A model generated the notes under the pieces. It saw nothing but the letters and a program-made list of their open reading frames with translations. It was not told where the DNA came from and did no database searches. From a virus, in the IMG/VR virus record IMGVR_UViG_3300004448_000116, positions 1 to 64,000 of that record: 64,000 bases of DNA. One strand, given 5' to 3'. Made by a program: the position numbers and the translations under genes. Below, piece after piece: positions 19,224 to 45,312 of the stretch. How positions within the stretch are numbered: position 1 is the first letter of the stretch; every line of letters starts with the position of its first letter.

Positions 19224-19458
19224 GCATACGAGATAGTGCTCCGTAGCGTTTGGCCTTCAACCGCTTCTTTGATTTCTTAGCCGACTCCTTCTGCCCTAAA
19301 GGACCGAAGCCTCCGTGCTTGCGGGCGTAGCCACACTGAGGACATTCGTGATACACCACATGCTTACCATTAGCGTACCGTCCGCTAACGGACAAAGGCA
19401 AGGCTGTTGTGCCACAGCACTCACAGGTCTGCATCAAAGATTTGACAAGAGCACCCAT
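19195..19458 (-). CDS. Zinc-ribbon protein with basic tail (87 aa)
   Basis: Starts at ATG 19458, overlapping the stop of the fibre gene (TGATG). Two knuckles, C12-E-C-C15 and C39-P-Q-C42, form a zinc ribbon. The C-terminal 40 residues are strongly basic (K-K-S-K-K-R-L-K-A-K-R), typical of nucleic-acid contact. It lies between virion genes and the metabolic gene. A late regulator is possible but no family is recognised. Confidence 0.65.
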   Translation of the reverse strand: MGALVKSLMQTCECCGTTALPLSVSGRYANGKHVVYHECPQCGYARKHGGFGPLGQKESAKKSKKRLKAKRYGALSRMLISQAMRDA

Positions 19459-20944: not shown

Positions 20945-22354
20945 TCATCCTCTCCTCGTGATTGTTTCTTGTCGCTTCGGGTTTTGAATTTTCAATAAGG
21001 CTACCTGCTTGGCCTGCGCCTCGCTCGACTTGCCGCCAATAATACTGCGGGTACCGTGCCCAATCAAAAAGCCAGCGGAGTCAACAATCGTATTCCCAAG
21101 GTCCCATTTGGTTGAAATCTTGAACCGTGCGCTGGCTGAGAACTCCTTTGTTTCAATTTGGCGACTGTGCTCGTCCCCTATTTCACCAAGTGAAGTAATG
21201 TCCCCTTCCTGAAACCTCTGAAGTAGGTCTTCGATACCACTGTCAAGCGAACCTATTTTGAAGTCGGCCATTTTCTCAACCAAGTGGTGCCGGGCTTGCA
21301 ACACATGGTAAATACTGTCATCACCATGCGCTTGATAGCGCACTTTTTCAGCAGGCTGTAAGGAGGAAGACCTGATAACTTTGTTCAGTGTGATTGAGCC
21401 AGTTGCATTAGCGGCACTGGATAAGAAACGCTGTCCAATGGCTTTGGCGCTTGCTCGTGAAACAGCAGTGGGAGCGAATATGCCACCGGGTACTTCTATG
21501 ATACCATTCTTTTGAGCGTTAAGGTCCCCTACAACTACGGTGTTATCATCATTGTTCGCACGAACCTTACCCCTTACGGTCACGCTGTTAGGCAAACTCT
21601 TACTCTTCGTACTGCTTTTCCCATCCGTGACCATCTGCCCTGTCAAATAATGCATTTTGTTGTTTTGAAGTTGATGTTGGTAGGACAAATTGCCAAACCT
21701 GTCACTCACAAGGCGGTGACCGTCGTGCCTGCTCACGAAACGCATGGCTGTGACACCATCAACGCCGTTGAAGTCCTTTGCAACGAAGGTCCCACTGCCG
21801 CGAGAGCGGCTAATCTCAACTGAGTTGAGTGAACTGGTCTGATTATCGCCTATTCGGGCCGCAAGGTCGCTTGTACGAAGCCCTACACTTGCTTTTTGAG
21901 TGATTTGTACTTCTGTACCGTCAAACCCAAGGTCGGAGAGTGATTTACCCTTCAAATTGGGCAGAATGAACCGTGTTCCCTTGGTAGCAGACTCGATTTG
22001 ACTCATAGTAAGGGCCTGAGAGGCGTTATCTGCATTTACAAGCAGTGCAGGAGTCGAATCCCCTTCGCTAAGTGAGCCGTCCGAGTGAAATAGCGAACCG
22101 GTGTAGCGATGACTGTCCGTTTGCTTGTGAACCAGTTCGATTGTGTCCTCTTGCTCCACCAAGGTGTACCTACGGTCATGTGCAGGCACAAAGTCGGACT
22201 GAACGGGCTTTGCTACCTGTCTTTTTGATGATGTTTGAGTGTACACGGCGTGTTTGACACCATTATCGACGAATCTCGGCTTACGGACCCGCTTCATCAC
22301 TGCACCTTGAGCCGCATCTGAGCGGCCGGTTGAAAGATTCTTACCCAGTGCCAT
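20945..22354 (-). CDS. Tail/baseplate structural protein, unknown
   Basis: 469 residues from ATG 22354, overlapping the stop of the Lys-rich gene (TGATG). Composition is Ser/Thr/Asn-rich with alternating short strands. A central stretch has R-G-K-V-R-A-N-N-D-D-N-T-V-V-V-G-D, and the C-terminus is basic. Its place directly downstream of the giant gene and upstream of fibre genes suggests a tail-tip or baseplate component. I do not recognise a family. Confidence 0.55.
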   Translation of the reverse strand: MALGKNLSTGRSDAAQGAVMKRVRKPRFVDNGVKHAVYTQTSSKRQVAKPVQSDFVPAHDRRYTLVEQEDTIELVHKQTDSHRYTGSLFHSDGSLSEGDSTPALLVNADNASQALTMSQIESATKGTRFILPNLKGKSLSDLGFDGTEVQITQKASVGLRTSDLAARIGDNQTSSLNSVEISRSRGSGTFVAKDFNGVDGVTAMRFVSRHDGHRLVSDRFGNLSYQHQLQNNKMHYLTGQMVTDGKSSTKSKSLPNSVTVRGKVRANNDDNTVVVGDLNAQKNGIIEVPGGIFAPTAVSRASAKAIGQRFLSSAANATGSITLNKVIRSSSLQPAEKVRYQAHGDDSIYHVLQARHHLVEKMADFKIGSLDSGIEDLLQRFQEGDITSLGEIGDEHSRQIETKEFSASARFKISTKWDLGNTIVDSAGFLIGHGTRSIIGGKSSEAQAKQVALLKIQNPKRQETITRRG

Positions 22355-22680
22355 CAGCAATTCCACCGTTTAAGGGAAGCCCCTTTTGGTGTCAACTTGC
22401 CTTTCTTACTGGTTGGTCCTTTGACACCAGTCATGCGAGCGCAGAAGGATTTTCTTCGCTTGGCAGACTTGCTACCCGCCTTCAATTTGCTGGGCTTCTT
22501 GGTGACAGGTGGTTTAAGATTAGCGCCTGTTTTGCGCTTAGCGGCGGCTCGACCTTTGGCGTTCAGCCCGCCCTTTTTGTTGTGCTTGTTAGGGTTGTAC
22601 CCGTGAAACGGTTTGCTCTTCTTTTTCTTGGCGGCTTTCAATACCGCCCAAGCATGGTCCATAGCATCATCCATGTCCAT
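22354..22680 (-). CDS. Lys-rich DUF6321-like protein (108 aa)
   Basis: Starts at ATG 22680, overlapping the stop of the giant gene (TGATG). The protein is extremely basic. The core matches a motif common in marine virus proteins: G-L-N-A-K-G-R, then L-K-P-P-V-T, then R-R-K-S-F-C-A-R-M-T-G-V-K-G-P, ending L-K-R-W-N-C. This is the DUF6321 pattern, of unknown role. The N-terminus has D-H-A-W-A-V-L-K, echoed in the protein at 16991-18064. Charge and location suggest a packaged or nucleic-acid-contacting virion protein. Confidence 0.7.
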   Translation of the reverse strand: MDMDDAMDHAWAVLKAAKKKKSKPFHGYNPNKHNKKGGLNAKGRAAAKRKTGANLKPPVTKKPSKLKAGSKSAKRRKSFCARMTGVKGPTSKKGKLTPKGASLKRWNC

Positions 22681-25600
22681 CACTCTGTGCTGTGGTCACC
22701 GCTGTTAAAAGATGTATCGCCCTTACTACCCTTTGGGTGCAATGTCTGGCTGTGACGAGGCTCAACAGAATAGTCTTCTTTTCTTGCGGCATCGCTTCTG
22801 AAATGCTCCAGTGTGTTCTCACTCATTGTGATACGGGCCACCGGTTGCGTGATGTCAGTCTTGTTATAACCAGATACATCAACTCCGAGAATCTTAGGTC
22901 CTTGGCTCACTGCGGCACTGTTAGCAGGGTTGACACTGTACACAGGTGCGTACGGTGGACTGCTTGGTGTACCTGTACGAGCCGAGGCCGCATCGCTGGT
23001 ATAGATACCATACTTTCCACCTGCTGTGGCGGCGTAAAATGTACCGCCTGCTTGAGGTGCTCCTGACTTAACTGCCATGTTAGAACGGAACAACTGTACA
23101 TGTGAATTATCCAAGACAAAGGCTGGTCGAACCAAGAACTCAATTTCAGAGTCAGCGTGGTTTATGTTCTCAGTCACCGAAGTGTGATTACTATCTTGGT
23201 ATGGGTTAGAGGAAGAAGTTGCTCCGGCCTCGCCCCAGCCAGTCACATCGAGTGCTCCTACCCTGCGCTTCCAGTTCATAACATAGGTACCACCAAGAGC
23301 CCAGAAAGAATGAGCGTCAGATACTTTGATGACTCCTTTGACAGGTTGCCCAGTCCAGTCTAACGCAGTCAGGTCGAGGTGACCAAGTGTACGGTTGCCT
23401 ACATTCATTGCTCCTCGGAGCGTTGTGCGCTGACCCACATCACGGTTGCTGTGTAGGCTGTGCGCTTCTGTTGACATAACAACATACTCACGGCTCACGC
23501 CGTCGTTGAGTTCTCCAAGCGTATCAACATCTAATCCAATTCGTACACCGTCACCGCCGACAGGCTCTGCAAGCATGGTGTCTGTGGTAATTGATTCGGT
23601 CGTTTCATTCACCATGGCTGTTGGTTTGAGAAGACCATCATCGTCGGCAAGGTCGAGCCGTGCACTGATACCACGGTCTGTTTCACCGGCTTGCAGTACA
23701 TCGTTTCTTGGGCGAACTAACCCCTTACCAACGGTAGGCTCAGCAGTCGGTTGAGATAGTACCAACCCCGTCGGCTCAACGGTTTCAGAAATATCCATGA
23801 GTAGGCTTTCGTTGAAATGTGTAGGCCATCGTACGCCGCGCCCATCTCCTCGGTCACCTACTCGCATGGCGTTTGTTGGGTTGAACCAATCTACAATAGC
23901 CATGGCCGCCACATCGTTATTGGCCGTGTTAGAGTTGCCACTCTGTCGGTCAGTACTGGTAGCAAAGAGGCCATTCGCTTCTGGTCGATTACCACTGCCG
24001 CCATCTTCGTATGCGTCTTCTGGGTCCCACGCAGGAGAAATACCAAATCCACGCACTGGGAATCGACGGACATCTTCTCCACGAGTGTTGCCCCACCAAT
24101 CGACCATGTAGTAGCGATGTGCTTGAGCAATCTCTGCAATGTCCAAGCCTGCCCTGTCGCCTGCGTACATCCGTCGCACGCTGGTCGAGTTGCGAATTGT
24201 GCGAACGGGACAGCCAAACGGGCGGGTCATTCTTCGACCATCGCTATATCGGACTTGACGGCCTAATTGGTCTTGGTTGAGGAGTGCGCTGATTTGAGTA
24301 AGTCGTTCCAACACACCTGTGTAGGTCGCAGGGTAATCTGAGTCAGTCACCCAGCCATCATCCTTGTTATCTTGTTGGATGAATGGTCCGTGGTAATAAC
24401 CAAGCAAAGCATTGGCGTTAGCCACTTCTAAGTAGCCTCGGACATAAGGCGACCAGCGTGGGCGGTTGTACGGTTGACGCAAACCAAAGCGATAGCCGAA
24501 GCAAGTGTTGCGGGCATTATCCGACGCTGTTGTCATTTGTGCGTATGTTCGCTCTTCAAGACCGGTGTTGTCGTGGAAACTCACGCAATCAACTCCGAAC
24601 AACTTTCCACCCCATCCAATAAGTGTTTCAAGGAATCCGTCCAAGCGACTGGAGCCTGCTCCTCCTCTGGAGCCACCGGGCCAGTAGCCTGCGAAATTGT
24701 ATTTCTCTGAGCCAATAGTACCCCCTTGGTGCGAAAGATTTTCGTTGGAATCTATTTCTGCGGCAGTACTGGATGCACCGGTACCACCAACAATGGAAGT
24801 GGTTGAAATGCTTATTTCCATGATGGGGAAACGGTTGGTAGTTGAGCCTCCGTCAACACCATTGACGGTCGACGGGCTTGGATTGTTAGCCATCTTACTA
24901 TCGTCAATTACACCCCAAAGCGTTGAAACATACAACTTCGTACCATCATCGCTCCAATCAATACCGGAAATCCAAGGTGTAGCATCGCTATTGGTTTGAG
25001 AAACTGACGCTGACTTGTTAAGGAAATAAGTACGCAAGTCAACGGTGACATCCAGACTCGCAGTGTTCGTAGCAAAGGGTGTCGACAGTGTGTACTCTCG
25101 GACATACCCTTCTGCGAAACTAAGCCACATCTTTGAACCGTCCGCATTGAATAGAATATCACTGATTGTGCTCGCTATTGAGGACGAAGTCCCTTCTGAG
25201 TCGCCACTTGCTACCACATAAGCACTGGCCGCAGTAAATTGTCGCAAAGTGGAGGCATAAGCCATGTAATACTTGCTCCCATCATTGTTCCATGATACTG
25301 CTCTCACTCCATTGCCACCCGATGCTTTTAGGGAACCAGTGAGCGAAATAGTTGTCAAATCAAATGCACTTGAAAGCGTTGCACTTCGTACGCCGTCAGT
25401 ATCATGGAAACCAGCGATGAGCATTTTTGTACCGGTTGGGTCTAAGTCAAAGCCATCACAACTGCTCATGACTGAGTCGCCTATACCTGAACTCTGTTGG
25501 TCGTATGTACCGTTGGTATTTGCTATGTCAATCTTAGAAAATAAGATGTTATCAGTATCGTAATCGTTGTTGTGTCCACGATTAGAAACAATGATGTCAT

Positions 25601-28600
25601 CTCCGGCTACACGAATACCCGTCATCCATGTGGTTGTATTTGCAATCATTTGGAAATTTATACCTCTTCGGTTGGCGGTCGTACCCACAGAATCAGATAT
25701 TTTTTGAAGTGAATATGAGTCGGTGACCGGGGCGGGTGGCCTAATCCAATTCATTCCAAATACGAACGGACCCTTAGATGCCGCATAGAAGAAATCATTG
25801 TAGTGAATTGTTTCAAAGTGTTCAGGGACATTGTTCAATCCTTTCTTGAGAACAGGTGTATCTGTTGCTCCGTTCTTGTCATAGAAGCCTCTGCTATTGT
25901 CATCTGAATAGTAGGTGAAAGGGCGGCCTAAGTTGGGGTGCCACATGCACAAATAGGCATCAGCGAGATGTAGGCTATTGGTATCACGAGTGCCGTTCAT
26001 GGTCTGTGGCATGACCCGAGTTGTCATGCTGACAAGCGAATTAGTGAAAATCTCATCCGCCTTTCGATTGTCATAAGGCCCGCTCAAACGAATAATTGTA
26101 CCGTTAGTCAAGTTATCAAAGAAGAGAGGAGTCACTTCCGTGACGCCTTGGAACTGTGTAGGGGTCCCAAGAGTAGCGTGGGCCAATGTTCCTGTTCGAT
26201 TTGCGTAGGTAGCCGTCTGCCTTTCTCCGTTGGCATCTGTGTATTCCAAAACCTCTCCGTAGTATGCTTTGACTGGGAACAGTTCAGCATTGTCCACATT
26301 GACTGTACTACCTCCAGCGGACGAGGCTGTGACCTTGGCATTGGGGTTCAGAGAGCGAACACGATAGTGCTCGGCGTAAATGTCAGGATAGCATGTAGGG
26401 TAGCCAGCAAGCGTAATCTGAGCACCTACTGCGCCAAAGGTAGCCCTGTTCATTTGATAGTAGTGGTCAGGTGTATGCCACTCCAAATGTCTGAAATATG
26501 TAGCGGCTGATGCGGTTGCTCCGTCCTTGTGCAACTGTGCCCACCACGGCACTGTGAGCGTAAATCCGGGTGTAGTCTGAATAAACATGTTGGGGTGGTA
26601 AGGCAAGGTGCGTCTGCTAAATGCAGGGGATGTGGTTTCTTCCACACCAAGAGCGTTGTAGTTAGCCAGTGGAGGCAAGTTCGTAAATTGACTGGAAGCA
26701 TCAGGCTCAATGTCAAGCATGATTTCGTTGAGCATGATTTCACAACCTCTGACATCCGCCATGATTGCCTCTGCCAAAATCAAGGTGTAGGCTCCGTTTG
26801 TGTTGCTCCCATCATCATGAGCAATAGCAACTACGGTGTTGACCTGCTGACCTGTGAGTTCAGTGACCTTACTTCCAGATTCTGAGGGTGCCTTCACTGC
26901 ATCTGAATGGTTGCTATGATAGCCAGAGAGTTGTTGCTTAAACACATTTGGTTGAATAATAATCTGGTATGCCCCAACTTCCATAGGGTCAGGGAAATGA
27001 TTATTCAGAGTGTAGGAACCGGCGGCTTCCAGTACAATTGAATGGCCTCCCTGTGAATTGGTTGTGCCTGCACTACCTTTTGATGCGGCTATGCCATAAC
27101 CATCGAACTTGACTTTGGTTTCAGTCAAGAGAGTGAATGCACCGCCGTGAATGTCGGACGGGCCGTGAGGGGCGGATGCTCCTGAAAACCAAACCAGCGG
27201 GTCACGACGGTTAAGTCGTTCAAGTAAATCGGCACCGCTGTACTGACTTGACATATCATCCTCAAAGGTTGAAGAGGTTGTAATTTGATTTGCTTGACCA
27301 AGATTGTAAAGTCGTTGATACGCAGGATGAGCATAGTGCCCCGGCATCAAAGCCATTGTTGGTGTGACATAATGATGACCCATGCGAGGAATAGGCATAG
27401 GCGTCATCTTAGGTGCGGCAAGAGCAGTAGAGGGAGTTCCATTAACTGCCGACCAATCAATGGTTTTCATATCTGGACTTGCTCCACTGTATTCACTGTG
27501 GTCACGCAATCGTCGGGAGGCAAAGAAACGGGTGCTACCAGCAGGCATGAAGTATGATGGTACAACCTTGAGTCCGGTCTTACCAGTCACGAAAGAAACA
27601 AAGTCTGGACTGTACACAACACCTGTAAATTTATTAGTTCCTTTACCAGTATAAGAGGCTAACACGCCCTTGTTTGTTGCAGGGTCGTACACTCGTAAGA
27701 ACCAGCGACCGCCGCTTGGTTCTGAGTTGTCTAACCATGTATCACTTTCGGGTGTACTACCAACTGTGATTTCAGCACCCGAATAACCACTGTAAGTCAG
27801 TTCATCAACATCATAGCGGTGTGTCATTGTCACACCCACACGAGTCACATGGAATTGCAAAGAGCGGTCATGTGGTTCGTATGCTGTGTTCAAAGGAGCG
27901 TTGTCGGTGTGTGACTCCCAGCCCTTTGAAGAACTGGCAGGGAACGCTAAGCGGTCATCAGAAAGGTCCGTACCGTCTTGCGACAGGTGTTCCCAGCCAT
28001 TATTCTCCCAAGTAGGCCAAAGCCTTGGTCCATCGTAGGTTTCTTTGAATGTATCAGTTATGGACGGCTGGGCTTGAGCAGGGTGCATCAAACCACCAGA
28101 GCCCATGGTTTCGTTTTGGTAAGCCTGTATTCGGTCGAAGCCCGGTCGAACAATGATGTTGCCGGGGATTTCGTCAGCGTTGGGCAATCGAATTTTCATG
28201 TTAGGTGATACGCCAGAGCCAGCAATAGCAGGGGCCAAGCCCTCTATGTCACGGTCACTTACATGTCTGAAATCCATGATGACTGTGCCCAAAGGACTGC
28301 CACCCTCAAGACGATGTTCTTGGCCTGTGTCATCAACAACTTGCATGCTTTCAAATTGCAAGTGCTCGTTGGGTATAATCAGAGCGTTTTCCTTTTCGTT
28401 GATGTGCTTCTGTGCCAGTTGAGGGTGGCTCAGTTCCTGTGCTTGGATGATTGGGAACATAGCACTGTTCGTCGACTCAAAGGAGAATCGACAATTGCCC
28501 AGAATCTTTTCCCCAACTGTCTTGTAAGACCCACCGTCTTTGCGAACAGTCCAAGGTATCATACCAAGACCACGAGCATTTGATGCAGGCATGGTTAAGT

Positions 28601-31600
28601 TGCCACCATCCATTCTTTTCCAAACAATGTGTTCTTCTGTAAAGTTGCGAGCCGCACTCTTTGTATCGTAGTACTTGTACAGCCCTGCTGATGTACCATG
28701 ATACTCTGTACGAGAAGCAATTCCCACACATTCTTGTACCAAAGTTTCTGCCAGAGTGTGTAATTGGTTGGTCGGCATGATTGACTTATCCCAGAACAAA
28801 TCTCCTGTTGGGCTTTGACAAGGGTCTGCCCGACTAACATGGCTGGCTGAGGTGACCCGTGCATTTGGATAGGCAACTGTGTCGACATCCGGGTAGGCTG
28901 TGAAATCTGTGCTTGCTCGGATGTTTGCTTCAACATGAGGTCCTGCTGTGGCAGGAGCGTTGTACCGACTCTTGTTGTGAACCCTGCTTGTATTCCAAGC
29001 CTGCGTACCTGCTCTCAAGATGTTGCCGTCTGCCTTGACAGAAAGCCAATCACCAGATGCAATTATGCCATCTCTGTCTGTTTTGGCTATGAGAGGCAAT
29101 TCACTTTCATGACTGACTGCTACCAAGTGACGGCTGGAAAGACCATGTACGCAAAAATCACTGACTAACGATGAAGGTGTATCTGTTATTCCAACAGGTG
29201 GGGATGATGCTAAGCAAGTTTCAGCAGAGCCATACGGAGCGAAGCCTAAGAATGGATGCCAAGCACCAAGTCCAGCAGGAAATTTAGTTCCCCCAATCGA
29301 GGTACCGTTGTAGGAATTCAGATAGGAATACGCCTCTCCTGCCCAACCAACTGCCCCTATGGGCTTGGTACGGTCGACTGCATCCATGAAGCCGTTGAAG
29401 TGCACCTGTGTCATGTGTTCACGAGATTGAGTCGTGTTGTTGTATTGGTGCGTACCTGCTTTGGTCCAGACATAGATTTTGACTGGTCCATTATCTCCGT
29501 TGACCTGAGCGGCGGCTATGGCCGCCTTTGTTGTGGGGTCAACCAAATTAGTGCTGTTCGTTATACCGTTCTTGCCAAGCGTGAAAGTTGAGCCGCTGTA
29601 AGACACATAGGGAGCAAAGGCAGACTTAGTACCGTTGCTTACACGCAACCAACCGTATGTAGGTAATGTGGTTGGCAAAGTAGCAGTTGCCTGCAAGGTC
29701 GCAACTGCACCATCTTCTGCGGTATAGCCATCTGCTACTGCATCAAGGGCCACCCAACCATAGCGGTCTTGCTTGCCTGCGTGTTGCATAGTTGGCAGGA
29801 AGGTACCACCTATTGCTTTCAATGGGTCTGCACCAGCGAATGTATTGATACCTGCGGCAAGCACTGTGGCCAGTTCTTCTGCATTCTGACAGCGTGTGGC
29901 GTCTATGATAAAGAAATTACCCGAAGCGTCTGCATGAGAATAGGCTTTGGCAATTGCACTGCTCACACGGAAAACGGATGGATTACGAGTGTCCCCACTG
30001 CCTGTGGCCAGCCTGTTAGTTGATGAAGGGTTTTTCACATTGCGGATTATATGGTTGTCTAAGAAATGACCACCGGGGTGGTAGCCTCCGTCCATGTGCC
30101 AAAGGCTGTTGGACGCTTTGGTGTTGGCTATGGCTCCTATGAAAGTACCTGCGTAATTCTTAAACACATCATCGAAAGGATGCGCGTAGGCAACAGGACT
30201 GCTCGGACCGAAGTGACTATCGTAGTACCGTCCCTTGCCTGCCGCTTGCCCATAGAAACGAGAATTAGGCATACCCTTGGTCGGCTCCCAATTGAGAATC
30301 CAGTTGTACCCTGATATGTTGCTGGCTTGGTATTCTTTGGTTGGTGGTAGGTTGGCAGAGAACCCGTAAAGAGTACTACCTCCGTGAGAAATCAAATTAG
30401 GCAGGAACGATTCTCCAGCAGGGTGAGCACTTGGTACTGCACTGTACCCGTTTCCTGTTGTAATAATGTCAGATAACTGTGGCTCATACGACTGGAAGTT
30501 GTGAGGAACAGCCTGCCCCGGTCCAAAGACCAAGTAGGTGGTAGCGTCACCTGCGGCCGATGTGGCCGAATATCGTGCGTGAGGATGAGAAAAGCGCAGT
30601 ACGATTGGACTCGGGCGGTTGCAATTGACTGTCTTCCCACCGCCTGCGTATGTGACTCCTGTCGAAGAAGCGTTGGTGTTATTTCCACCATCTAAGTCAG
30701 GGCTCAGCATGGCATCTTTGTTGAAGAACGGTGGGTAGTGCTGTCCATTATGCTGATTGAGATAAGGTGTACCGGGGAACATAGCCAGCATAGCGTTAGT
30801 ATCAATCAGTGCATAGGAGCCAGCGGCTTCACCTACATTCTGCATACCAGCAGAGCCAGTCGGTCCAGATGAATATGGGTGAGTGTAAAATTCCTCATAA
30901 TCGTTTTGTGTTCCGTCGTTAATGTCGAGCGTGACTCCAGAGAAACCGCCGCCAAAGTACAGAGGTACCCATCTGTCAACACTGGAACGGCCACCACGGA
31001 AGTATAGGAATGGCTCTCCATGATGGCTACCTGTTGTACGAATACCGTCACAGTCATGGAATTTCAAAAGATTGCCGTGGTTGACAATGACATCCCCAGC
31101 GGCAACATTGCTAACAAAGTCAGCCGAATGATTGAGCAAATCTAATTTGTTCTCAGCGGCTCCTGCCTTGCTGACCGCTCTGGCCCAGTCTGTGTCACCT
31201 CTCCAGAAGACAACCTCTTCACTCCAAGCATTAGCATCGTTAGACGCTGGAGTCATGGCGAGGTAAAGATACTCATTAGATGGAAGCACCAAGTGGTCAG
31301 GTGTGGTACTCGTGTCCTTTGAGCCTATGTTGACCATCACAGTGTTGACGCACGGCGTGATTCGGTCACCGGGCAAGCGGATGTAAGTGTCCCCTCTGAG
31401 ATTGTCACGCCACTGCTTGACATTGACGGAATCGTTAAGGCTGTCAACAAGTACAGGGGTTGCGGTGTTAGCATTGGGTCCACGATACTTTGTGGTGATA
31501 TGAAGAACAGTGGCCGGGATGTAGCCGACATCGAGCCTAACACCGGCCGCAATTTCTGCCCCAGTCAGTCCGCCCAAATGATTTGTCCCTGTTCCAAGAT

Positions 31601-34600
31601 TGCTTGCCGCCGCTTGAATGCCCCAATCCTTGCCAACAGACGATTGGAATAAGTGCCGCAGGGGTGTGACCTTGTGTTTGGAACTGTGTGCCTTGATGCG
31701 TATAGCGTCAGGTGCGACACCCCATTCTCCAAGCGTTTTGCCGTCTGGAGCCAAGTAAGATGTACAGTCAAATGAGGTGGCACTCACATCTTCAGTGTTC
31801 GGGTCTTCCATGTTGATGGCATGATTGACCGCCGCCGCAATGACTTCATCGGTGAGGAGCGAAGTGAAATTGATACGAGGACTAAAAATTCGTGTGACTG
31901 CACTGGAGTAGCCTGAGCCTATGTTTTTAACGCCGTACAGATAATGAATACCAGAGGCACCAGCCTTGGCGTAATGAGAGCGGCTTGTGTAGTAGTATGT
32001 TTCTCCATTGTTTGCTGTGCCAGCAACATCGTTTAATTGGATAAGCCCGCTGTCAGGCAGACCAAGATAGCCCAGAATATCTGTGTGCGCCAAGTTGCTA
32101 CCAGTGCCGTAAGGAGCGGCTAAAACAATTTTGAAATTGTCATTTGAGCCGTCCTTTTGGAAGGTAGCAGATATGCCCACAGCAGGTGAATTGTAAGTGT
32201 TCCAAAGATTGCCACGGAAGGATTGCTTTGTACCACCAGTGTACTGTCCGCAGACATCACCTTTGCCACTGATGTGCTTTCCTATGGTGAAGCCACCCTG
32301 CCCGACATCACGGTCATCAAAGTGAATAATGACTTCGTTGTCCAATGTAGGCGGCAAACGAGTCAAAGAATTGCCCAGTGCCTCGCCGTATTGCTTGTAC
32401 GCCATTCTGATGGTGTGGCTATCTCCACGGTGGTCAACCATGCGGATGCCGTACAGTTGTCCTGTACCCATCTTGTCAGGCCGAATGTCATCGTCAGGTA
32501 TGTAGCCACCACCACTCTGGTTGACAAGGCCGTGTTGCTTGGTACCAGCGGCTAAATCTTTGTCGCCGTAAATGTAATCGTAGCGAGTGGAAACGCCATC
32601 TCTTCCCATTCCCCACTTACCAGCATCGGGTGCCCAGCCCGGAATGCCTGCTTGTGTTAATCCACCAAAGTTGATTCGGGCCTTTGCTTGTGTTCCCACC
32701 CGCAGACCCTCAACGAGAACCTTTCCGTCTGATTTAGGCTCAAAACTGGCATTGAGAATAGTGTTGCTACTGCGACCAGTAGCGTGCTCATCTGTCGAGT
32801 GAGCGTTAATCGCACCCGAGCCGTGTACTTCTGGACCAAAGTCGAGTGTGTTTTGGTAGTCTGCATCGACTTCCTCCATTGGAATGTACTCTCGGAGCGT
32901 AGTGATTGGGGCAAACGGACGACCAAACTTGGTGATTGGCATTGGTGCAGGATGCATGTTTTCACCATCCATCTCATCTGGCTGGCACCAGTAGTTGCGA
33001 AAACGCCCTCCGTGACCGATGAGGTACTCTGGTCTGTACGGAGCCTGTCCATTTGAGTTATCCATCCAAGCACAGAAGTTGCGACCAGATGCACCGGGCA
33101 CAGTCGAGTGAACTATAATCGAGTAGCCCTTCTTGCCTTCTGCGTTATTGACGACTCTGCCAAGGTGAGCACGCATGTACCCCATGTGTGTACCTCGGTC
33201 ATGACTGCCGAAAGCCGTATCAGAATTCCAGAAAGGAGCAGGGTCGTGTGTTGAACCAGTAGCGGCAAAGTCTGCTTTCTGATGAGGGGCAGTAGGGTCT
33301 TTGCGAGGATTGGTACTGGTCGCTGAATGACCTTTCCCTAAATCAAACCTATCGGCCTCGCCCAAAAATTGGTCAGCCGGTCGACGAGCATGAGTTCGTC
33401 CTGTTTTTGCCCCAGCCTGATTGATGCGGCGGACAACCTCTCTTGCGGCCGCCTCGATGTCAGTGATACCTTGGCGGACTCCTATTTCTCCAAAGTCAAG
33501 AGTGAGCCTACGGACGAAATCCATTTGGTTCCAATGTGGCAAATGTTGCAGGCGGCTTTCTTCGTGCCCAGACAAATCAAGTGTTGAAGACCTAATGCCT
33601 TTCATGGATAGGAATGCAGGGACTGCTCTCGTACCGTCAGGTGTATCGAATAATGTGGCTGTTTCAGATGTCGAAGAGTCTATTTGGTTATGTATGTTCT
33701 CTGGGTTTCCATACTCTGTGACATCGTCATTTGTTCTTCGCATAGTTGCAGTGACATCGGGTATATGATTATGATAACCTGTTGCATGTGTGGCAATCGT
33801 CACATTGAGTTGCCCTGAATTGTTGTGCGCCATAGCCGCTTCCATGAATTCAGACTTAGCAGTTGAGGCCGTTCCTTTGTGTTGACTTGGAAAACCGTTA
33901 GCCACATCGACAGGTGTTTTGACCTTGGCTGTCGCAGGGCTACTTTGAACTTGCATCCAAAGGTCTTGGAAAGCAATGAACTCTCGGTCATGAGCGACAT
34001 CGTAAAGCAACACACGAGCATAGTCTTCTGTGCACTGATACGGGTCCAAATAGGCCACAGTAGGAGCCAGTGTAGCACTAAGCCCCAGTGCTTCGTAGTT
34101 TAACTCAATCGTCTTGTTGATGTGTTGTACAAAGTTGCGGCTCGTTTCCAAGCAGGAATTACCAATCAAGAAATTCTCCATCGGTATGCTTTCACGAGGT
34201 GTGGTTGCAAAATCACTTGCTCCTCCGAGGAAACCTGTCCATACTTGCCCTTCGTTGAGCGTGCCTCTGCTCTTACAGAACAGCCCCTCCACTGAATGTG
34301 GATTGGTGTATTGCATGTTCATCCAGACGGTATCTCCGTCCCTGAGCCCACCGGGGCAGAATGGATTAGCCCATTTGGTGTTGAGTAGTTGTGTGTTCAA
34401 AGTAGCAGGAAGCGTTGAGCCAGTTGCATGGAAATCAACAAGAGTGATTTCTGTACCTGCACTTGGGTTAAAGCCACTATCAATAGTAATCAAAGAAAGC
34501 ACATTGCCCGTGCGTGTTTTGTAGTGTGCATGCTTGTAGGCACTTGCAGTGCTATCATAGTACCGAACTCGATACGCATGTGTACTGTGAGAAGTGGTCG

Positions 34601-37600
34601 CTGGCCATGTTTCAGATGATTCAAGCGTAAGATTCGGACTGCTGAAAGCCTCAACGATGGCACGGGCTCTTTTGTTTTGTACATGAGGTAGGTGCGGATT
34701 CGTGCTGGGACCAGAGCGGAATTCAACGGCAGAAACATATTGTTTCAATCCGTAGTCTATGTTGCCACCCTGTGTCATTACATTTGCTCGGTCGTAATAG
34801 AACTCGGAACGCTGTTCAAATCCTGCACTTGACAGCAACGGATTGTCAGCAATCGATGTGTAATTCATGTTTTGAATTCCCTGAGCAGGGGAAATTCGAC
34901 TACCGACTTGGTAATCCCGAAGGAAGTTGGAAGAGAACGCCCATGCATCATCCGCCGCCGCATTTCCTGCAACGGTCAGATAGTTGTTGGTTGTATCGAT
35001 GGCACTGTAAATCACCCACTCGCCATTCTTTGTAAATGCTGAACGGAATCTGAGTGCGCCTCCTATGCCTCCTATGACAACAGGAGCGGCCGAGGGTATT
35101 GGGAAAAGGCTCGCATCTTTCACATAGATGCGTCTGTTAGAACTGTCATACTCAGCACTGATGGTTGTACCACGCTTGTGTGTCTTTTGAGATACAGGAT
35201 GTGAGAATGCACTGTGAACTTGTGGGTCTTCTGGTGCCACGCTCTTTGGTCTTCGACCAACAGGGTTGGGTGCCCATGTAGGTGCAGTGTAGGTCGCATC
35301 AAGATGCAACTTCATACTGTTGTCAGGACCGGGGAACACACCTGCGACAGGGTCATCAAAGAAAAATTCTTCAAAGAGCGGGAACTCAATCATAGCCCGT
35401 GTGCTGGCATATTGAGTACCCAACTGATAATCGTGCTGTACTGTGTCCAATGTTTGGAAAAGTCTGTCGTTGATGGTTGTGCCGTCAGGAGCAATGGACT
35501 CTGCGTTGAACTTGTCATCCACTTGCAAATAACCGCCGATTGCGATTGCTGTCCCTGTCTTCCAATCTGCAAACGAGGCGGCTTCTGTACCATCGAAGAG
35601 GACGAATTTGCCTGAGCCCAAATGTGTAGTACCAGAAGCAAATGTGAATACACTCCCTGTCTTTGAAGTGTATTCTGCGGAGGCAAACAACTGATTGTCT
35701 GCCCCTTCAATTCCGGGCTTTTGCAGGAAGATTTTTCCTACCTTTGGAAAGCAATAAGTTCCCCATGATGCGAGGTCAGTGGCATTATTATTGAGCGGTA
35801 CGACTGTAATGGTGGTGCTACCAAGTGCACTCACCTTCGTAGTACAGTCCCTACGAGTCGACCAGCCAAGTCGTGCCGTTGGACTTGGGTCCCAAGTCGG
35901 CTTGGTGTTGACCGCTCCTTGTCCTACTCCACCCATAGTCATCGTGACTACTGGGCTACCGGGCATAATTTCCTTGACAATATGTGAATCGGGAGCACCG
36001 TCGCCCTTGACATTGACAGAATTGGACAATGCATCTGCGACCAGACCGTGTGCTCGCATAACCGTGTCATTCTGAGCGTTGCTATCAAAATCAACGACTT
36101 TACCACGACCAACAACATACTGAACGATGACGGTGTTGGGCTCTGAGTCGTCTTTGTTTGTCAGCATCTTTGTCAGTTGACTAAACCTACGGCGGTCAGA
36201 GGGCTGTACAACAACACGAGTCCGGCCGCTCTTTGTGCGATGGCCTATGATGTCAAACACTTCATTGACAGCGGTGCTTTGATTTGTTGAACTGACGGTC
36301 TGCATCAGCGGTTGATGGAACAACTCTTCATTATCGGCTACTGTTCCAGCAATACCTGCGCTTATACCAATGGCTGTGGAAGATAGGCTCGTAATTGCAC
36401 CAAGCAACAGGCCCTTTTGAGTGTACACATTGAGTCCTACTCCGAATTTGGTAGTGGCGTCAACACCATCGACTGTGATTGAAGTAGCAGTTGCCGAATA
36501 GCCTCCGCCATTGTTGACAAGTACACCCGTACGAGGACGGACTTCTTTCTTGAACTCCGCTTGAAAGTTCCCAGATGCTTCTAAATTGGGTGTGATTTGT
36601 TCGTTAATCGATGCTGAGATTACCAATTTATGGAAAAATGATTTGTGGACAGTGTTATCGTAAAGCGCAGATGCAATCACCTGCGGTGCTTTCTGTACAG
36701 AGTCAGTTGAATGTAGCGGAAGATAGTTGTCAGGGGTCAGAGAAACATCCAGTTGTGTTTCTGCAATAGTACCTTCCGAATCATCGCCTACAAGCCCGCC
36801 GTCCTCAATGTAAAAGGACGAGTCAGAATCAAATTCCAGCACACCACCCGGTGCATAGAGAACTGCTGTTCCAGCAGATATGTCTGAATGGATGAGGTCA
36901 ACCATCTTAACGCCAGATGCCAATTGCGTGTTGCCACTTGGAATTGTTTTTTCAATCAAAAGAGCACTGCCACGCAACGACACATTAACAATTGCACCCG
37001 TGACTGCGGCAGTTTGGAATGCTGATGTAGGTGCAGAGGAGAATGTCAGCGTTTTTGCACTGTGGTCGAGCGTAGCCGTAATGGAAGAAGCACCTGCTAC
37101 CTCTCCTGCTATGCTGATGTAGTCGGCACGGATAGTAGTGCCTGTTTTACCAAATGCCTCTGTGCTTTGGAATTTAATTACGCTGGAAGAATAATTGTGG
37201 GTCAGCCGTCCTGTGGCGGCATGTTTCATACCCGTACCTGCAAAGTCGATTGCGTTGTAATGCACCTGTACGAATGGAGCGTAATCGTATGTTGAAAGAC
37301 TGGGTACCTTGAGAATCGCTACTCTTGACTCAGTGGATGGAGTCATGTGACGAGTGTGTGCATCACCCGTAGGAGAAGTATCGCCCATGTTTCTCAAAGC
37401 AAATGACTCTGCGTCAAAGCCATCGCCACCTATGGCAAGAAGGGCTCGTTGAGTATCATCGACACCAGCCATTCCGTTTTCAACAGCCTGAGTTGGAACA
37501 GACGAAAAGGCCAATCCTGAAACATCGTATGGTCCAAACAAGTCATTGAAGACAACAGGACTACCGGGTGGGACACAATCTGACAAATCAGAATACTGTG

Positions 37601-39110
37601 CGGCAAAAGACGCCTCCATTATCTGTGCAACAGCGTCGATGCTCTGCTCGACATAAGCCGCTTTAGGCGTTGGCATTGTGCCCATGAACGGATGGCCGGG
37701 GATGTGATTGAGTGTGTGTCGACCTGTGTGGCCTATGAGGAAATTGTCAGCCATACGAGTGGTTGCAGAGAACTTTGAATAGCCGTTATCTGTTGTTGCC
37801 ATAGTCAAAGCAAACAGCAACCCGTGATTTTCAAAGTCACTTTCGTCGATGAGAACTTGTCCTTGGCGATGAGAGAACTGGGTACCTGTACCAGCAATCT
37901 GATACGGCTCTCCTGTACCCCCGTCGACCAAGCAATCGCCCGTGACAATGACTCCGATGCCTGCACCGTGTGCCATAAGCAAACCTCTTCGACCTGTACT
38001 GGCGTTGCTTGCATAATCCAAGTGAATACTTTCGACGGTCATTGTACCAGCAGACGCATCCACTGCTGTGATTCTCACACGCTCAGGTGCTTCTCGGTTG
38101 GGAATGCCTGTGCTTTGGCTGTACCCAAGTGGATTGATAAGCAGATTGAATGGTACATGTGGTACACTGACAGTTGTCGATGACCCGCTGGTAAAGCGTT
38201 TAACGCTATAAGAGCCGTTTGATTGAGGGGAGGTGGTTAGGTCCACCGAAGTCAGACCGCTTTGTCCGGTGAACTCGTCGACCAAGGTCTGTGCCAATGT
38301 GGTACCGATTGAAATGGATGATGATGCTCCTGTCGAAGCCGATAGAGAAGGTAGCGTAATACTGGTAGCAATGGGTTCAACAGGTTCTTCAAATCGCCAA
38401 AGACCGAGTGTTGAGTCGCTCTTGGCAGGCAAAGACAAATCGTGCCCAGCGTCGGATGCTCCTCTGCTCCAGTGCACTGCCTCAATAGTGCCACGATATT
38501 CCCCTCCTGTACCACCAATGCTGAGTTGTGTAGGATGGAGGGACAGTTCGTGTTCTTCGTCAAGCGTTTTCGATGCGATGACATCTCCGTTGATGTGGAG
38601 CGAAAGTATTGTGCGGTCAAAAGTCAATGTCACTTGAAGCAGTTCTCGGTGTCCGAGATTAAGCCCAGTCAGGTCATTCTTGCTGTCGTCCTGTGCGTTG
38701 AATGTATCGTGTACATCAAGGCCAGCGCGAGGGAAGGTGACGCCGTCCCAGTATGCTACATTTCCATCCAAACCAGAAACGGCTTGTGCACTGCTCAATG
38801 TGAATGTGTTTTCAGCATCGTTGGCTATGTTGCGCAACTTGATTTGGGCGTGTGCAGGTCCGGGGCTCGATGGGCTTCCTACGATGATGCGGCAGACATT
38901 TTCCTGTTCCCAGACTATGCCCCCGGAATCTGGAATAATCCAAGCCTCGATAGTGAAGGCAGACAACGCAGTTGGTGTTTTCTGATGCGTCAGGTCACTA
39001 CCTGTGTGTAGTTCTCCAAAGTTGTTCTTAAATGTCATTTGGGGAACAATGACACCATCGGTGATACCATTGAAGAAAAGGGCGTGACTTGGTTCGATTG
39101 ATACGGTCAT
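22680..39110 (-). CDS. Giant virion protein (5476 aa), probable tail or host-contact protein
   Basis: One uninterrupted 16.4 kb frame. ATG 39110 is preferred because AGGGG lies seven bases upstream; a GTG at 39116 overlaps the preceding stop. Residues 1-225 look like a LamG/concanavalin-type lectin domain (F-T-I-E-A-W-I-I-P ... L-S-L-H-I-N-G-D-V). The bulk is Gly/Asn/Thr/Ser-rich beta structure. About residues 4490-4740 carry beta-propeller-like repeats (D-P-T-G-T-K-M, N-D-G-S-K-Y-Y, A-D-G-S-K-M-W-L, D-D-G-T-K-L-Y-V). There is no signal peptide or membrane segment. Location after the tail tube and paired tail proteins suggests a tail-tip, fibre or surface adhesin rather than a tape measure, since it is not helical. 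The viral chaperonin may be needed to fold it. Confidence 0.9.
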   Translation of the reverse strand: MTVSIEPSHALFFNGITDGVIVPQMTFKNNFGELHTGSDLTHQKTPTALSAFTIEAWIIPDSGGIVWEQENVCRIIVGSPSSPGPAHAQIKLRNIANDAENTFTLSSAQAVSGLDGNVAYWDGVTFPRAGLDVHDTFNAQDDSKNDLTGLNLGHRELLQVTLTFDRTILSLHINGDVIASKTLDEEHELSLHPTQLSIGGTGGEYRGTIEAVHWSRGASDAGHDLSLPAKSDSTLGLWRFEEPVEPIATSITLPSLSASTGASSSISIGTTLAQTLVDEFTGQSGLTSVDLTTSPQSNGSYSVKRFTSGSSTTVSVPHVPFNLLINPLGYSQSTGIPNREAPERVRITAVDASAGTMTVESIHLDYASNASTGRRGLLMAHGAGIGVIVTGDCLVDGGTGEPYQIAGTGTQFSHRQGQVLIDESDFENHGLLFALTMATTDNGYSKFSATTRMADNFLIGHTGRHTLNHIPGHPFMGTMPTPKAAYVEQSIDAVAQIMEASFAAQYSDLSDCVPPGSPVVFNDLFGPYDVSGLAFSSVPTQAVENGMAGVDDTQRALLAIGGDGFDAESFALRNMGDTSPTGDAHTRHMTPSTESRVAILKVPSLSTYDYAPFVQVHYNAIDFAGTGMKHAATGRLTHNYSSSVIKFQSTEAFGKTGTTIRADYISIAGEVAGASSITATLDHSAKTLTFSSAPTSAFQTAAVTGAIVNVSLRGSALLIEKTIPSGNTQLASGVKMVDLIHSDISAGTAVLYAPGGVLEFDSDSSFYIEDGGLVGDDSEGTIAETQLDVSLTPDNYLPLHSTDSVQKAPQVIASALYDNTVHKSFFHKLVISASINEQITPNLEASGNFQAEFKKEVRPRTGVLVNNGGGYSATATSITVDGVDATTKFGVGLNVYTQKGLLLGAITSLSSTAIGISAGIAGTVADNEELFHQPLMQTVSSTNQSTAVNEVFDIIGHRTKSGRTRVVVQPSDRRRFSQLTKMLTNKDDSEPNTVIVQYVVGRGKVVDFDSNAQNDTVMRAHGLVADALSNSVNVKGDGAPDSHIVKEIMPGSPVVTMTMGGVGQGAVNTKPTWDPSPTARLGWSTRRDCTTKVSALGSTTITVVPLNNNATDLASWGTYCFPKVGKIFLQKPGIEGADNQLFASAEYTSKTGSVFTFASGTTHLGSGKFVLFDGTEAASFADWKTGTAIAIGGYLQVDDKFNAESIAPDGTTINDRLFQTLDTVQHDYQLGTQYASTRAMIEFPLFEEFFFDDPVAGVFPGPDNSMKLHLDATYTAPTWAPNPVGRRPKSVAPEDPQVHSAFSHPVSQKTHKRGTTISAEYDSSNRRIYVKDASLFPIPSAAPVVIGGIGGALRFRSAFTKNGEWVIYSAIDTTNNYLTVAGNAAADDAWAFSSNFLRDYQVGSRISPAQGIQNMNYTSIADNPLLSSAGFEQRSEFYYDRANVMTQGGNIDYGLKQYVSAVEFRSGPSTNPHLPHVQNKRARAIVEAFSSPNLTLESSETWPATTSHSTHAYRVRYYDSTASAYKHAHYKTRTGNVLSLITIDSGFNPSAGTEITLVDFHATGSTLPATLNTQLLNTKWANPFCPGGLRDGDTVWMNMQYTNPHSVEGLFCKSRGTLNEGQVWTGFLGGASDFATTPRESIPMENFLIGNSCLETSRNFVQHINKTIELNYEALGLSATLAPTVAYLDPYQCTEDYARVLLYDVAHDREFIAFQDLWMQVQSSPATAKVKTPVDVANGFPSQHKGTASTAKSEFMEAAMAHNNSGQLNVTIATHATGYHNHIPDVTATMRRTNDDVTEYGNPENIHNQIDSSTSETATLFDTPDGTRAVPAFLSMKGIRSSTLDLSGHEESRLQHLPHWNQMDFVRRLTLDFGEIGVRQGITDIEAAAREVVRRINQAGAKTGRTHARRPADQFLGEADRFDLGKGHSATSTNPRKDPTAPHQKADFAATGSTHDPAPFWNSDTAFGSHDRGTHMGYMRAHLGRVVNNAEGKKGYSIIVHSTVPGASGRNFCAWMDNSNGQAPYRPEYLIGHGGRFRNYWCQPDEMDGENMHPAPMPITKFGRPFAPITTLREYIPMEEVDADYQNTLDFGPEVHGSGAINAHSTDEHATGRSSNTILNASFEPKSDGKVLVEGLRVGTQAKARINFGGLTQAGIPGWAPDAGKWGMGRDGVSTRYDYIYGDKDLAAGTKQHGLVNQSGGGYIPDDDIRPDKMGTGQLYGIRMVDHRGDSHTIRMAYKQYGEALGNSLTRLPPTLDNEVIIHFDDRDVGQGGFTIGKHISGKGDVCGQYTGGTKQSFRGNLWNTYNSPAVGISATFQKDGSNDNFKIVLAAPYGTGSNLAHTDILGYLGLPDSGLIQLNDVAGTANNGETYYYTSRSHYAKAGASGIHYLYGVKNIGSGYSSAVTRIFSPRINFTSLLTDEVIAAAVNHAINMEDPNTEDVSATSFDCTSYLAPDGKTLGEWGVAPDAIRIKAHSSKHKVTPLRHLFQSSVGKDWGIQAAASNLGTGTNHLGGLTGAEIAAGVRLDVGYIPATVLHITTKYRGPNANTATPVLVDSLNDSVNVKQWRDNLRGDTYIRLPGDRITPCVNTVMVNIGSKDTSTTPDHLVLPSNEYLYLAMTPASNDANAWSEEVVFWRGDTDWARAVSKAGAAENKLDLLNHSADFVSNVAAGDVIVNHGNLLKFHDCDGIRTTGSHHGEPFLYFRGGRSSVDRWVPLYFGGGFSGVTLDINDGTQNDYEEFYTHPYSSGPTGSAGMQNVGEAAGSYALIDTNAMLAMFPGTPYLNQHNGQHYPPFFNKDAMLSPDLDGGNNTNASSTGVTYAGGGKTVNCNRPSPIVLRFSHPHARYSATSAAGDATTYLVFGPGQAVPHNFQSYEPQLSDIITTGNGYSAVPSAHPAGESFLPNLISHGGSTLYGFSANLPPTKEYQASNISGYNWILNWEPTKGMPNSRFYGQAAGKGRYYDSHFGPSSPVAYAHPFDDVFKNYAGTFIGAIANTKASNSLWHMDGGYHPGGHFLDNHIIRNVKNPSSTNRLATGSGDTRNPSVFRVSSAIAKAYSHADASGNFFIIDATRCQNAEELATVLAAGINTFAGADPLKAIGGTFLPTMQHAGKQDRYGWVALDAVADGYTAEDGAVATLQATATLPTTLPTYGWLRVSNGTKSAFAPYVSYSGSTFTLGKNGITNSTNLVDPTTKAAIAAAQVNGDNGPVKIYVWTKAGTHQYNNTTQSREHMTQVHFNGFMDAVDRTKPIGAVGWAGEAYSYLNSYNGTSIGGTKFPAGLGAWHPFLGFAPYGSAETCLASSPPVGITDTPSSLVSDFCVHGLSSRHLVAVSHESELPLIAKTDRDGIIASGDWLSVKADGNILRAGTQAWNTSRVHNKSRYNAPATAGPHVEANIRASTDFTAYPDVDTVAYPNARVTSASHVSRADPCQSPTGDLFWDKSIMPTNQLHTLAETLVQECVGIASRTEYHGTSAGLYKYYDTKSAARNFTEEHIVWKRMDGGNLTMPASNARGLGMIPWTVRKDGGSYKTVGEKILGNCRFSFESTNSAMFPIIQAQELSHPQLAQKHINEKENALIIPNEHLQFESMQVVDDTGQEHRLEGGSPLGTVIMDFRHVSDRDIEGLAPAIAGSGVSPNMKIRLPNADEIPGNIIVRPGFDRIQAYQNETMGSGGLMHPAQAQPSITDTFKETYDGPRLWPTWENNGWEHLSQDGTDLSDDRLAFPASSSKGWESHTDNAPLNTAYEPHDRSLQFHVTRVGVTMTHRYDVDELTYSGYSGAEITVGSTPESDTWLDNSEPSGGRWFLRVYDPATNKGVLASYTGKGTNKFTGVVYSPDFVSFVTGKTGLKVVPSYFMPAGSTRFFASRRLRDHSEYSGASPDMKTIDWSAVNGTPSTALAAPKMTPMPIPRMGHHYVTPTMALMPGHYAHPAYQRLYNLGQANQITTSSTFEDDMSSQYSGADLLERLNRRDPLVWFSGASAPHGPSDIHGGAFTLLTETKVKFDGYGIAASKGSAGTTNSQGGHSIVLEAAGSYTLNNHFPDPMEVGAYQIIIQPNVFKQQLSGYHSNHSDAVKAPSESGSKVTELTGQQVNTVVAIAHDDGSNTNGAYTLILAEAIMADVRGCEIMLNEIMLDIEPDASSQFTNLPPLANYNALGVEETTSPAFSRRTLPYHPNMFIQTTPGFTLTVPWWAQLHKDGATASAATYFRHLEWHTPDHYYQMNRATFGAVGAQITLAGYPTCYPDIYAEHYRVRSLNPNAKVTASSAGGSTVNVDNAELFPVKAYYGEVLEYTDANGERQTATYANRTGTLAHATLGTPTQFQGVTEVTPLFFDNLTNGTIIRLSGPYDNRKADEIFTNSLVSMTTRVMPQTMNGTRDTNSLHLADAYLCMWHPNLGRPFTYYSDDNSRGFYDKNGATDTPVLKKGLNNVPEHFETIHYNDFFYAASKGPFVFGMNWIRPPAPVTDSYSLQKISDSVGTTANRRGINFQMIANTTTWMTGIRVAGDDIIVSNRGHNNDYDTDNILFSKIDIANTNGTYDQQSSGIGDSVMSSCDGFDLDPTGTKMLIAGFHDTDGVRSATLSSAFDLTTISLTGSLKASGGNGVRAVSWNNDGSKYYMAYASTLRQFTAASAYVVASGDSEGTSSSIASTISDILFNADGSKMWLSFAEGYVREYTLSTPFATNTASLDVTVDLRTYFLNKSASVSQTNSDATPWISGIDWSDDGTKLYVSTLWGVIDDSKMANNPSPSTVNGVDGGSTTNRFPIMEISISTTSIVGGTGASSTAAEIDSNENLSHQGGTIGSEKYNFAGYWPGGSRGGAGSSRLDGFLETLIGWGGKLFGVDCVSFHDNTGLEERTYAQMTTASDNARNTCFGYRFGLRQPYNRPRWSPYVRGYLEVANANALLGYYHGPFIQQDNKDDGWVTDSDYPATYTGVLERLTQISALLNQDQLGRQVRYSDGRRMTRPFGCPVRTIRNSTSVRRMYAGDRAGLDIAEIAQAHRYYMVDWWGNTRGEDVRRFPVRGFGISPAWDPEDAYEDGGSGNRPEANGLFATSTDRQSGNSNTANNDVAAMAIVDWFNPTNAMRVGDRGDGRGVRWPTHFNESLLMDISETVEPTGLVLSQPTAEPTVGKGLVRPRNDVLQAGETDRGISARLDLADDDGLLKPTAMVNETTESITTDTMLAEPVGGDGVRIGLDVDTLGELNDGVSREYVVMSTEAHSLHSNRDVGQRTTLRGAMNVGNRTLGHLDLTALDWTGQPVKGVIKVSDAHSFWALGGTYVMNWKRRVGALDVTGWGEAGATSSSNPYQDSNHTSVTENINHADSEIEFLVRPAFVLDNSHVQLFRSNMAVKSGAPQAGGTFYAATAGGKYGIYTSDAASARTGTPSSPPYAPVYSVNPANSAAVSQGPKILGVDVSGYNKTDITQPVARITMSENTLEHFRSDAARKEDYSVEPRHSQTLHPKGSKGDTSFNSGDHSTE

Positions 39111-39112
39111 AC

Positions 39113-40363
39113 TCACACCCCTATGACATGGTCAGCACTCATCAGTTGTAAATCATATCGGTAGGTACCATCGGCTCCTTCCTTCTTGATGTGTAATTTG
39201 GTAGGTACAACCGACAGACCGCCTTGATTGCCGACTGCGCTTTTACCTGCAAGTGTAGCCCATGCCTCTCCAAAATAGTCCCTCAGCCCGTCGACAAGAT
39301 TTTCAAGCAGACCTGTTGAACGGCCATCTTCATTCTCACCGACTGTGTTTGAAACCCGCATAGGCAAGGTAGCAGGTCGAGAGTTATTACGAGAATCCTT
39401 TTCAGCAGGCGTCAATTTACCATAGGTCAAGAACAGATTTCGCACAACAGGAGTGATGTCGTTCGACTGTACGAGTGAGTGGTAGGGGATTTGTATTCCT
39501 CGTAGCAGGTCAGACTCTTTACGAGAATTGGAAATTAGGCCCAATAGGTCTTGTGCCTTGTCGCCTGCGCTCTTACCAAAAGAGTAGCGAGAAGGCAAAC
39601 CAGTTGACAAAATTGATGGAGAAAAATCATTGTTAAAATCAGGGTCACGAGGAGTCCATTGTCTATCTTCATATTGGAACTTGTCTTCTATGCGTACGAT
39701 TTGTTGGCCGTTGGCATGCTGTGATGTCGTCACAGTGAACGCATCTGCGACACGCCTTGCGCCCGGAACACCAAAGTGTCCAGTCGCTGTGATATTGGTT
39801 GTCAGTGCAAGTGCGTCTTTGATGATGAGGGCCAGTGTTGAGGCAGGGTTGCCATTTGTAGCACCTGCCTCCACATTCCCAATGGGTACATCAATATGCA
39901 CATCACCCGTTTCAGCCCACTGCTTTGTTCCAACAACAGTAGGTACACCCGAGCCTCCGGCCCTGTTTGAAATAGTGGTGTTGAAATCAAGAACAATGTA
40001 CGCAGGTCGACCAGAAGGACTACCGTCCCTGTCCCACCAATACGCAGGATGAAAGCGAATTGATTTGCCTGCTAACACTGCTGTCACCGCAATAGTCGAT
40101 GTTTGTGAAACCCAATTGCTGGTTATGATTTCTGTGGATGCAAGACGAGGCGACTGTACAACTCCAGCATCATCGTCGTCTTCCAAAAGCCCAGAGATGT
40201 TCATTGTGACCTGTGGTAGGTTTGTGTCGACACCTACTCGCTGTGATGAAATCGGTAGTGGGAAAACAGTGACCCCACGAGAAACTGCGACCGCTATGTC
40301 TGTCGCACTCGTATTGATTGTGAAGTTATTCCCCTCACCAAAAACAAATCGAACAGGAATCAT
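39113..40363 (-). CDS. Tail protein, paralogue A (416 aa)
   Basis: Starts at ATG 40363 after GAGGTGATG. Beta-rich with a central helical segment S-A-G-D-K-A-Q-D-L-L-G-L, then I-Q-I-P-Y-H-S and L-F-L-T-Y-G-K-L. The same order of motifs (S-A-G-D-K-V-Q-D-I-F-G-I, V-Q-I-P-Y-D-S, F-F-L-T-H-G-K-F) occurs in the next gene, so the two are diverged duplicates. The C-terminus (Y-R-Y-D-L-Q-L-M-S-A-D) resembles ends of tail-tube-like domains. Likely distal tail or hub proteins lying just before the giant gene. Confidence 0.65.
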   Translation of the reverse strand: MIPVRFVFGEGNNFTINTSATDIAVAVSRGVTVFPLPISSQRVGVDTNLPQVTMNISGLLEDDDDAGVVQSPRLASTEIITSNWVSQTSTIAVTAVLAGKSIRFHPAYWWDRDGSPSGRPAYIVLDFNTTISNRAGGSGVPTVVGTKQWAETGDVHIDVPIGNVEAGATNGNPASTLALIIKDALALTTNITATGHFGVPGARRVADAFTVTTSQHANGQQIVRIEDKFQYEDRQWTPRDPDFNNDFSPSILSTGLPSRYSFGKSAGDKAQDLLGLISNSRKESDLLRGIQIPYHSLVQSNDITPVVRNLFLTYGKLTPAEKDSRNNSRPATLPMRVSNTVGENEDGRSTGLLENLVDGLRDYFGEAWATLAGKSAVGNQGGLSVVPTKLHIKKEGADGTYRYDLQLMSADHVIGV

Positions 40364-43003: not shown

Positions 43004-43004
43004 A

Positions 43005-45308: not shown

Positions 45309-45312
45309 GTTA

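Follow-up and report, generated by a model that had tools for sequence, protein, structure and literature searches.

A 5,476-residue protein, probably of the tail tip, in a magrovirus-like tailed virus

Introduction

Is a viral reading frame of 5,476 codons one real gene, and if so, what would its product do in the virion? The window analysed here, a stretch of 64,000 nucleotides from an IMG/VR virus record, raises this question because a single frame takes up about a quarter of it. The virus resembles the magroviruses, which have been reported among the most abundant viruses of the ocean and for which, to our knowledge, there are neither isolates nor a known receptor-binding protein. Magroviruses are tailed viruses of Poseidoniales and form the order Magrovirales (PMC10768690, PMC12999244, PMC10160649).

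Results

The gene on which the analysis centres is the following.

22680..39110, minus strand: giant gene of the probable tail-tip protein, 5,476 aa, ATG start; homologous ORFs 5,173 to 6,140 aa; dN/dS 0.044

The frame ends with a stop codon at 22680 and begins with an ATG at 39110. An in-frame GTG at 39116 is a possible alternative start that would give 5,478 aa, and the homologues begin at the position of the ATG, which is kept among them. The gene occupies 24.8% of the linear contig of 66,187 bases, and in 200 shuffles of the sequence the same frame was never open for more than 239 codons. This confirms the preliminary description of the DNA, in which the gene was taken to be one uninterrupted frame.

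The first homology search returned 60 related loci. Homologous frames in the size range given above and without internal stops are present in many independent IMG/VR contigs, and 19 full-length homologues show 41 to 97% identity, aligned over 4,778 to 5,476 residues. The comparison of lengths across related viruses that had been proposed gave a core of about 5,100 residues that is co-linear among the full-length homologues, with about a dozen discrete insertion sites in the family, each of approximately 40 to 310 residues. Shortened copies end at contig ends or, in G013, at a run of N. Among 12 contigs picked solely for a related capsid gene, 11 contain the giant gene (intact copies of 5,236 to 5,618 aa), and the one remaining contig is a fragment of 42 kb in which the capsid gene lies close to the end. 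The dN/dS of the giant gene was 0.044 in comparison with G005 as well as with G002, the two relatives used (G024 and G025, with residues out of register, were left out), and it ranged from 0.013 to 0.094 across all 500-codon blocks. Judged by these ratios, strong purifying selection acts over the whole length of the gene. The contig was assembled from a metagenome, and the copy in one relative, G020, contains internal stops, which could point to an artefact or a chimera that joins several genes. However, the merging of genes by assembly error that the preliminary description had considered is excluded by the uninterrupted frames in independent assemblies and by a dN/dS that is low throughout, and the probability that we assign to it is negligible. 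The giant gene is real, one conserved frame under selection. In one relative, G053 (110,919 bases; with L159 and L160), the gene spans both contig ends, which suggests that this genome, of about 111 kb, is circularly permuted or complete.

Three parts of the protein could be delimited.

38376..39110, minus strand: N-terminal LamG or concanavalin-like jelly-roll domain, residues 1-245, from Pfam in homologues and Foldseek
36276..36542, minus strand: mobile module of about 80 aa, residues 857-945, from profile search
24741..25733, minus strand: inserted beta-propeller cassette, residues ~4460-4790, missing in G005, with stand-alone homologues and a propeller fold

Laminin_G_3 was matched by 9 of 14 giant homologues (best E 2e-6), with the window's own copy falling under the Pfam cut-off, and a Foldseek search with the N-terminal model (mean pLDDT 70) found the LamG-type folds of PAPP-A, neurexin, laminin and pentraxin (best E 2.8e-7). 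The LamG-like start that had been read from the sequence is thereby borne out. Beyond this domain, the model of the N-terminus is rich in beta structure and could be assigned to no family, and the fraction of helix-forming residues is 0.32 in the giant, compared to 0.53 in g842, a helix-rich protein of the same virus. Composition and model thus also bear out the claim that the giant is beta-rich and no normal tape measure, which would be a long and mainly helical chain. The C-terminal model was poor (pLDDT 39) and of use only within the propeller.

Scans of the giant against Pfam and PHROG gave no family except LamG, and PDB sequence searches gave nothing useful. No relatives were found in the annotated phage collection or in bacterial and archaeal genome contigs, and hhalign comparisons of the giant, g553 and g416 with tail-tip genes of haloviruses and methanogen viruses gave no homology. 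No internal repeats were found by profile self-comparison, which rules out a tandem-repeat fibre. Among the loci analysed, 110 ORFs contain the module of about 80 residues, and every one belongs to a tail family (giant, g416, g473, g553, g757 or tube).

The propeller region was modelled with a pLDDT of about 80 as repeated four-stranded blades, with WD40-type matches (E 4e-9), and no Pfam family was above the cut-off. Most relatives lack it. One of them is G005, in which a short linker rich in Gly takes the place of the propeller and the rest of the giant is 96% identical. Its identity to G003 is 83% versus 95% in the flanks, and to G020 84% versus 65%. Stand-alone propeller genes of approximately 280 to 340 aa and 40 to 46% identity exist in other contigs, and G037 contains both such a gene and a giant without a propeller. 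Since the propeller evolves apart from its flanks, is missing in G005 and exists on its own, it is, as far as can be judged from the sequences, a lineage-specific exchangeable insertion outside the giant core. The propeller-like repeats noted earlier near the C-terminal end are therefore a true beta-propeller fold; their standing has to be refined to that of a swappable cassette and not a part of the core.

The genes around the giant are ordered tube, chaperones, g553, g416, giant, hub, g107 and fibre.

19458..20588, minus strand: g376, tail-fibre-like protein by composition and length variation (376-980 aa in relatives)
20590..20913, minus strand: g107, baseplate-type protein, a weak lead (halovirus gp134-like)
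20945..22354, minus strand: g473, baseplate hub, its C-terminal hub region matching the halovirus gp132-type hub
22354..22683, minus strand: small basic ORF of 109 aa that overlaps the giant stop codon and separates giant and hub gene
39113..40363, minus strand: g416, beta-rich tail protein, often with the 80-aa module
40373..42034, minus strand: g553, beta-rich tail protein
42036..42500, minus strand: g154, probable tail assembly chaperone by its position after the tube gene, as in HCTV-5
42737..43042, minus strand: g101, probable tail assembly chaperone, position as in HCTV-5
43269..45320, minus strand: tail tube protein (Phage_tube_2, E 3e-4), C-terminal half similar to HCTV-5 gp127 (hhalign probability 96)
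45313..45753, minus strand: g146, homologue of HCTV-5 gp126 (hhalign probability 95)
45763..48036, minus strand: g757, C-terminus homologous to HCTV-5 gp124 (hhalign probability 96-98; phrog_17057)
48043..50571, minus strand: g842, helix-rich and length-variable, best tape-measure candidate
52324..53508, minus strand: HK97-type major capsid protein, 34% to Druskaviridae MCPs (phrog_24667)

The hub gene was recognised by hhalign against a halovirus hub profile (probability 76.9, E 2e-5, 141 columns, best of 37 profiles), its name being taken from the "baseplate hub" annotation in HVTV-2, and the three best profiles in this comparison all contain the g473 region. The 109-aa ORF is very basic and is also found in G002, G005 and L060, with 82% identity in the more distant L060. 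In one relative, other genes next to g376 gave PHROG matches to "tail fiber" and to virion proteins. The two beta-rich proteins g416 and g553 are likely paralogous. g842 lies upstream of the tube gene, outside the usual place of a tape measure. The G025 and G055 lineages lack it, and in them no protein could be assigned as tape measure. Farther along, at 54963-60854, a protein of 1,963 aa without an assigned family is encoded between portal and protease; its length varies in relatives, and the large HCTV-5 protein gp114 sits similarly.

Three divergent contigs, G055, G056 and G057, encode the giant as two adjacent genes, which divide the window's protein as follows.

30201..39110, minus strand: N-part, residues 1 to ~2970, a separate gene of 2,187-2,215 aa in these three contigs
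22683..30191, minus strand: C-part, residues ~2974-5476, a second gene of 2,236-2,499 aa in the same lineage

The first of the split genes matches window residues 1-2771 and the second approximately 3577-5462, so that the boundary, placed near residue 2970 by global alignment, is secure only between 2771 and 3577. An earlier assignment of the boundary to an insertion hotspot at 3124-3182 was dropped in view of this alignment. In G055 and G057, the start of the second gene overlaps the stop of the first (TAATG). In G055 and G056, the second gene runs on C-terminally into the homologue of the hub protein g473, a fusion that points to contact between the C-part and the hub. G055 also contains a second giant frame (L157:1756-11391) of 3,212 aa between g757 and the tube gene, in which a g146 homologue is fused to about 3,070 more residues of beta-type composition.

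The remaining genes point to the kind of virus. The major capsid protein is 32 to 34% identical to those of Druskaviridae haloviruses over 98% of its length, and protease, portal and tail tube genes were identified in the record. The virus encodes a replisome of its own, with PolB, a clamp loader, an archaeal primase (weak match) and a Hef/Xpf-type (ERCC4) nuclease, as well as a chaperonin of the thermosome type. The replication and structural modules are transcribed in opposite directions, and the genomes of relatives are approximately 90 to 115 kb, in keeping with a size of 90 to 110 kb for such viruses (the present record has 66 kb). Because of this set of capsid, tail, replisome and thermosome genes, the virus fits a magrovirus-like tailed archaeal virus, and among the MGII viruses its thermosome agrees with clade 1 (PMC5332604). 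The ocean virus group that bears the giant probably infects Poseidoniales archaea. An HMG-CoA-lyase-like enzyme (18080-18949) and the thermosome subunit (15511-17016) lie between the structural and replication modules.

Discussion

Our results are best explained if the giant is a tail-tip virion protein of a magrovirus-like virus of Poseidoniales, attached to the hub and with a role in adsorption, and we consider this probable. The C-terminal half would be placed at the trimeric baseplate hub, on its N-terminal side, and the chain, about 590 kDa in mass, would extend outwards from the tail tip to form a large adsorption apparatus of many domains. Glycans or proteins on the archaeal host surface may be bound by the LamG domain and by exchangeable inserted modules, the propeller among them, and this binding would come first, after which the hub would open and the DNA be ejected. 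We infer that the protein is present in virions, at three copies per virion, that it binds glycans and that it has a role in host range. Attachment to the hub as a tail-tip or fibre protein is suggested because haloviruses have their LamG and propeller genes behind a baseplate gene and because the fibres of HFTV1 attach to the hub. As expected of a tail fibre or receptor-binding protein, the gene lies in the tail module beside the hub. The core is conserved from end to end, unlike classical fibres with their variable tips, and this conservation fits a structural tip or baseplate body equally well as a fibre. Of the two locations that the preliminary description had offered, the distal tail is supported as the most likely, by the position in the tail module, the hub fusion and the shared 80-aa module, while a long surface appendage on the host cell finds no support.

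The same evidence bears on other roles. Many virion decorations contain LamG domains and propellers, and the contact site of the giant is a predicted one, which would leave room for a long side or head fibre or a capsid decoration away from the tail tip; however, the three observations that favour the distal tail make such a place quite improbable. Still less probable is that the giant acts as a ruler of tail length, in place of the tape measure protein or alongside it. Its gene does have the usual position of a tape measure, with the chaperone genes on one side and the hub gene on the other, and the sole helix-rich candidate sits elsewhere and is missing in two lineages. Against this, a beta-rich, non-helical chain with a LamG domain and an inserted propeller could not pack inside the tube, and in the lineage of the window itself, g842 resembles a tape measure.

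The split form raises the question of whether the giant is a polyprotein, made as one chain from which a protease of the virus or the host releases at least two separately working tail proteins. The N-part and C-part are separate coupled genes in G055, G056 and G057, and the covalent link between them is thus dispensable there. Cleavage of tail proteins is known from other phages and gives this reading a precedent. However, the whole length, including the region near residue 2970, is co-linear and similarly constrained in all fused members, no protease gene adjoins the giant and no cleavage site was identified in it, and we regard processing of this kind as unlikely.

A tail-tip adsorption protein of this size could also have a wider function. 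One chain may unite most of the tail-tip machinery, serving as a scaffold with swappable receptor-binding cassettes and, in viruses where no helical tape measure is found, maybe helping to set tail length. Set against the haloviruses, where the LamG protein, the propeller adhesin and the baseplate pieces are several small genes, this would be a consolidation, and as a reading it is tentative, with a real if small chance of being right. The conserved core beside the hub together with a clear exchange cassette gives magroviruses a concrete candidate for an adsorption apparatus and host-range determinant. The LamG domain has a further implication, as the auxiliary metabolic genes reported for four magrovirus groups include Laminin_G_3 (PMC10160649). 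Since the domain belongs to a tail protein in the present lineage, the genes so counted may include a tail protein.

The giant core appears to be new to Pfam, PHROG and the annotated phages; tail-tip adsorption proteins as such are already known, and an earlier mention of the core in the literature is possible. A viral protein in BFVD/UniProt, A0A1B1IU10, is homologous to its N-terminal 1,100 residues (E 2e-74, 29% identity); this protein has no functional name and is represented by a fragment model only. The idea that the giant is among the largest virion proteins known holds insofar as it is large, but it is not the largest, since proteins of up to 7,694 aa, some of them tentatively structural, have been predicted in huge phages (PMC7162821). 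Those belong to larger genomes and have no stated relation to the giant, which is found in genomes of about 90 to 115 kb.

The closest parallels are found among the haloviruses, whose capsid and tail-tube genes are related to those of the present virus. The halovirus LamG tail proteins (HCTV-5 gp136, HVTV-1 gp137, HHTV-2 gp63 and HCTV-2 gp59) likewise have a LamG fold and are likewise encoded in the tail module, after a gp9/gp10-like baseplate protein, and the HVTV-1 protein was retrieved by the fold search with the giant's N-terminus. In contrast to the giant, they have only 365 to 376 aa, their genes are separate from those for hub, propeller and baseplate, and no sequence homology was detected to the giant or between its LamG domain and theirs. 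Directly adjoining the LamG gene gp59 of HCTV-2 is gp60, a PQQ-like beta-propeller repeat protein with a gene of its own, whereas the giant's propeller sits inside the chain. In HFTV1, cryo-EM has shown the tail fibres to attach at the N-terminus of the trimeric hub (PMC12494034). The HFTV1 proteins are separate and of ordinary size, with no sequence match to the giant in the PDB searches, but the arrangement is alike: in the sister lineage, the C-part precedes the hub homologue, to whose N-terminal side it is fused.
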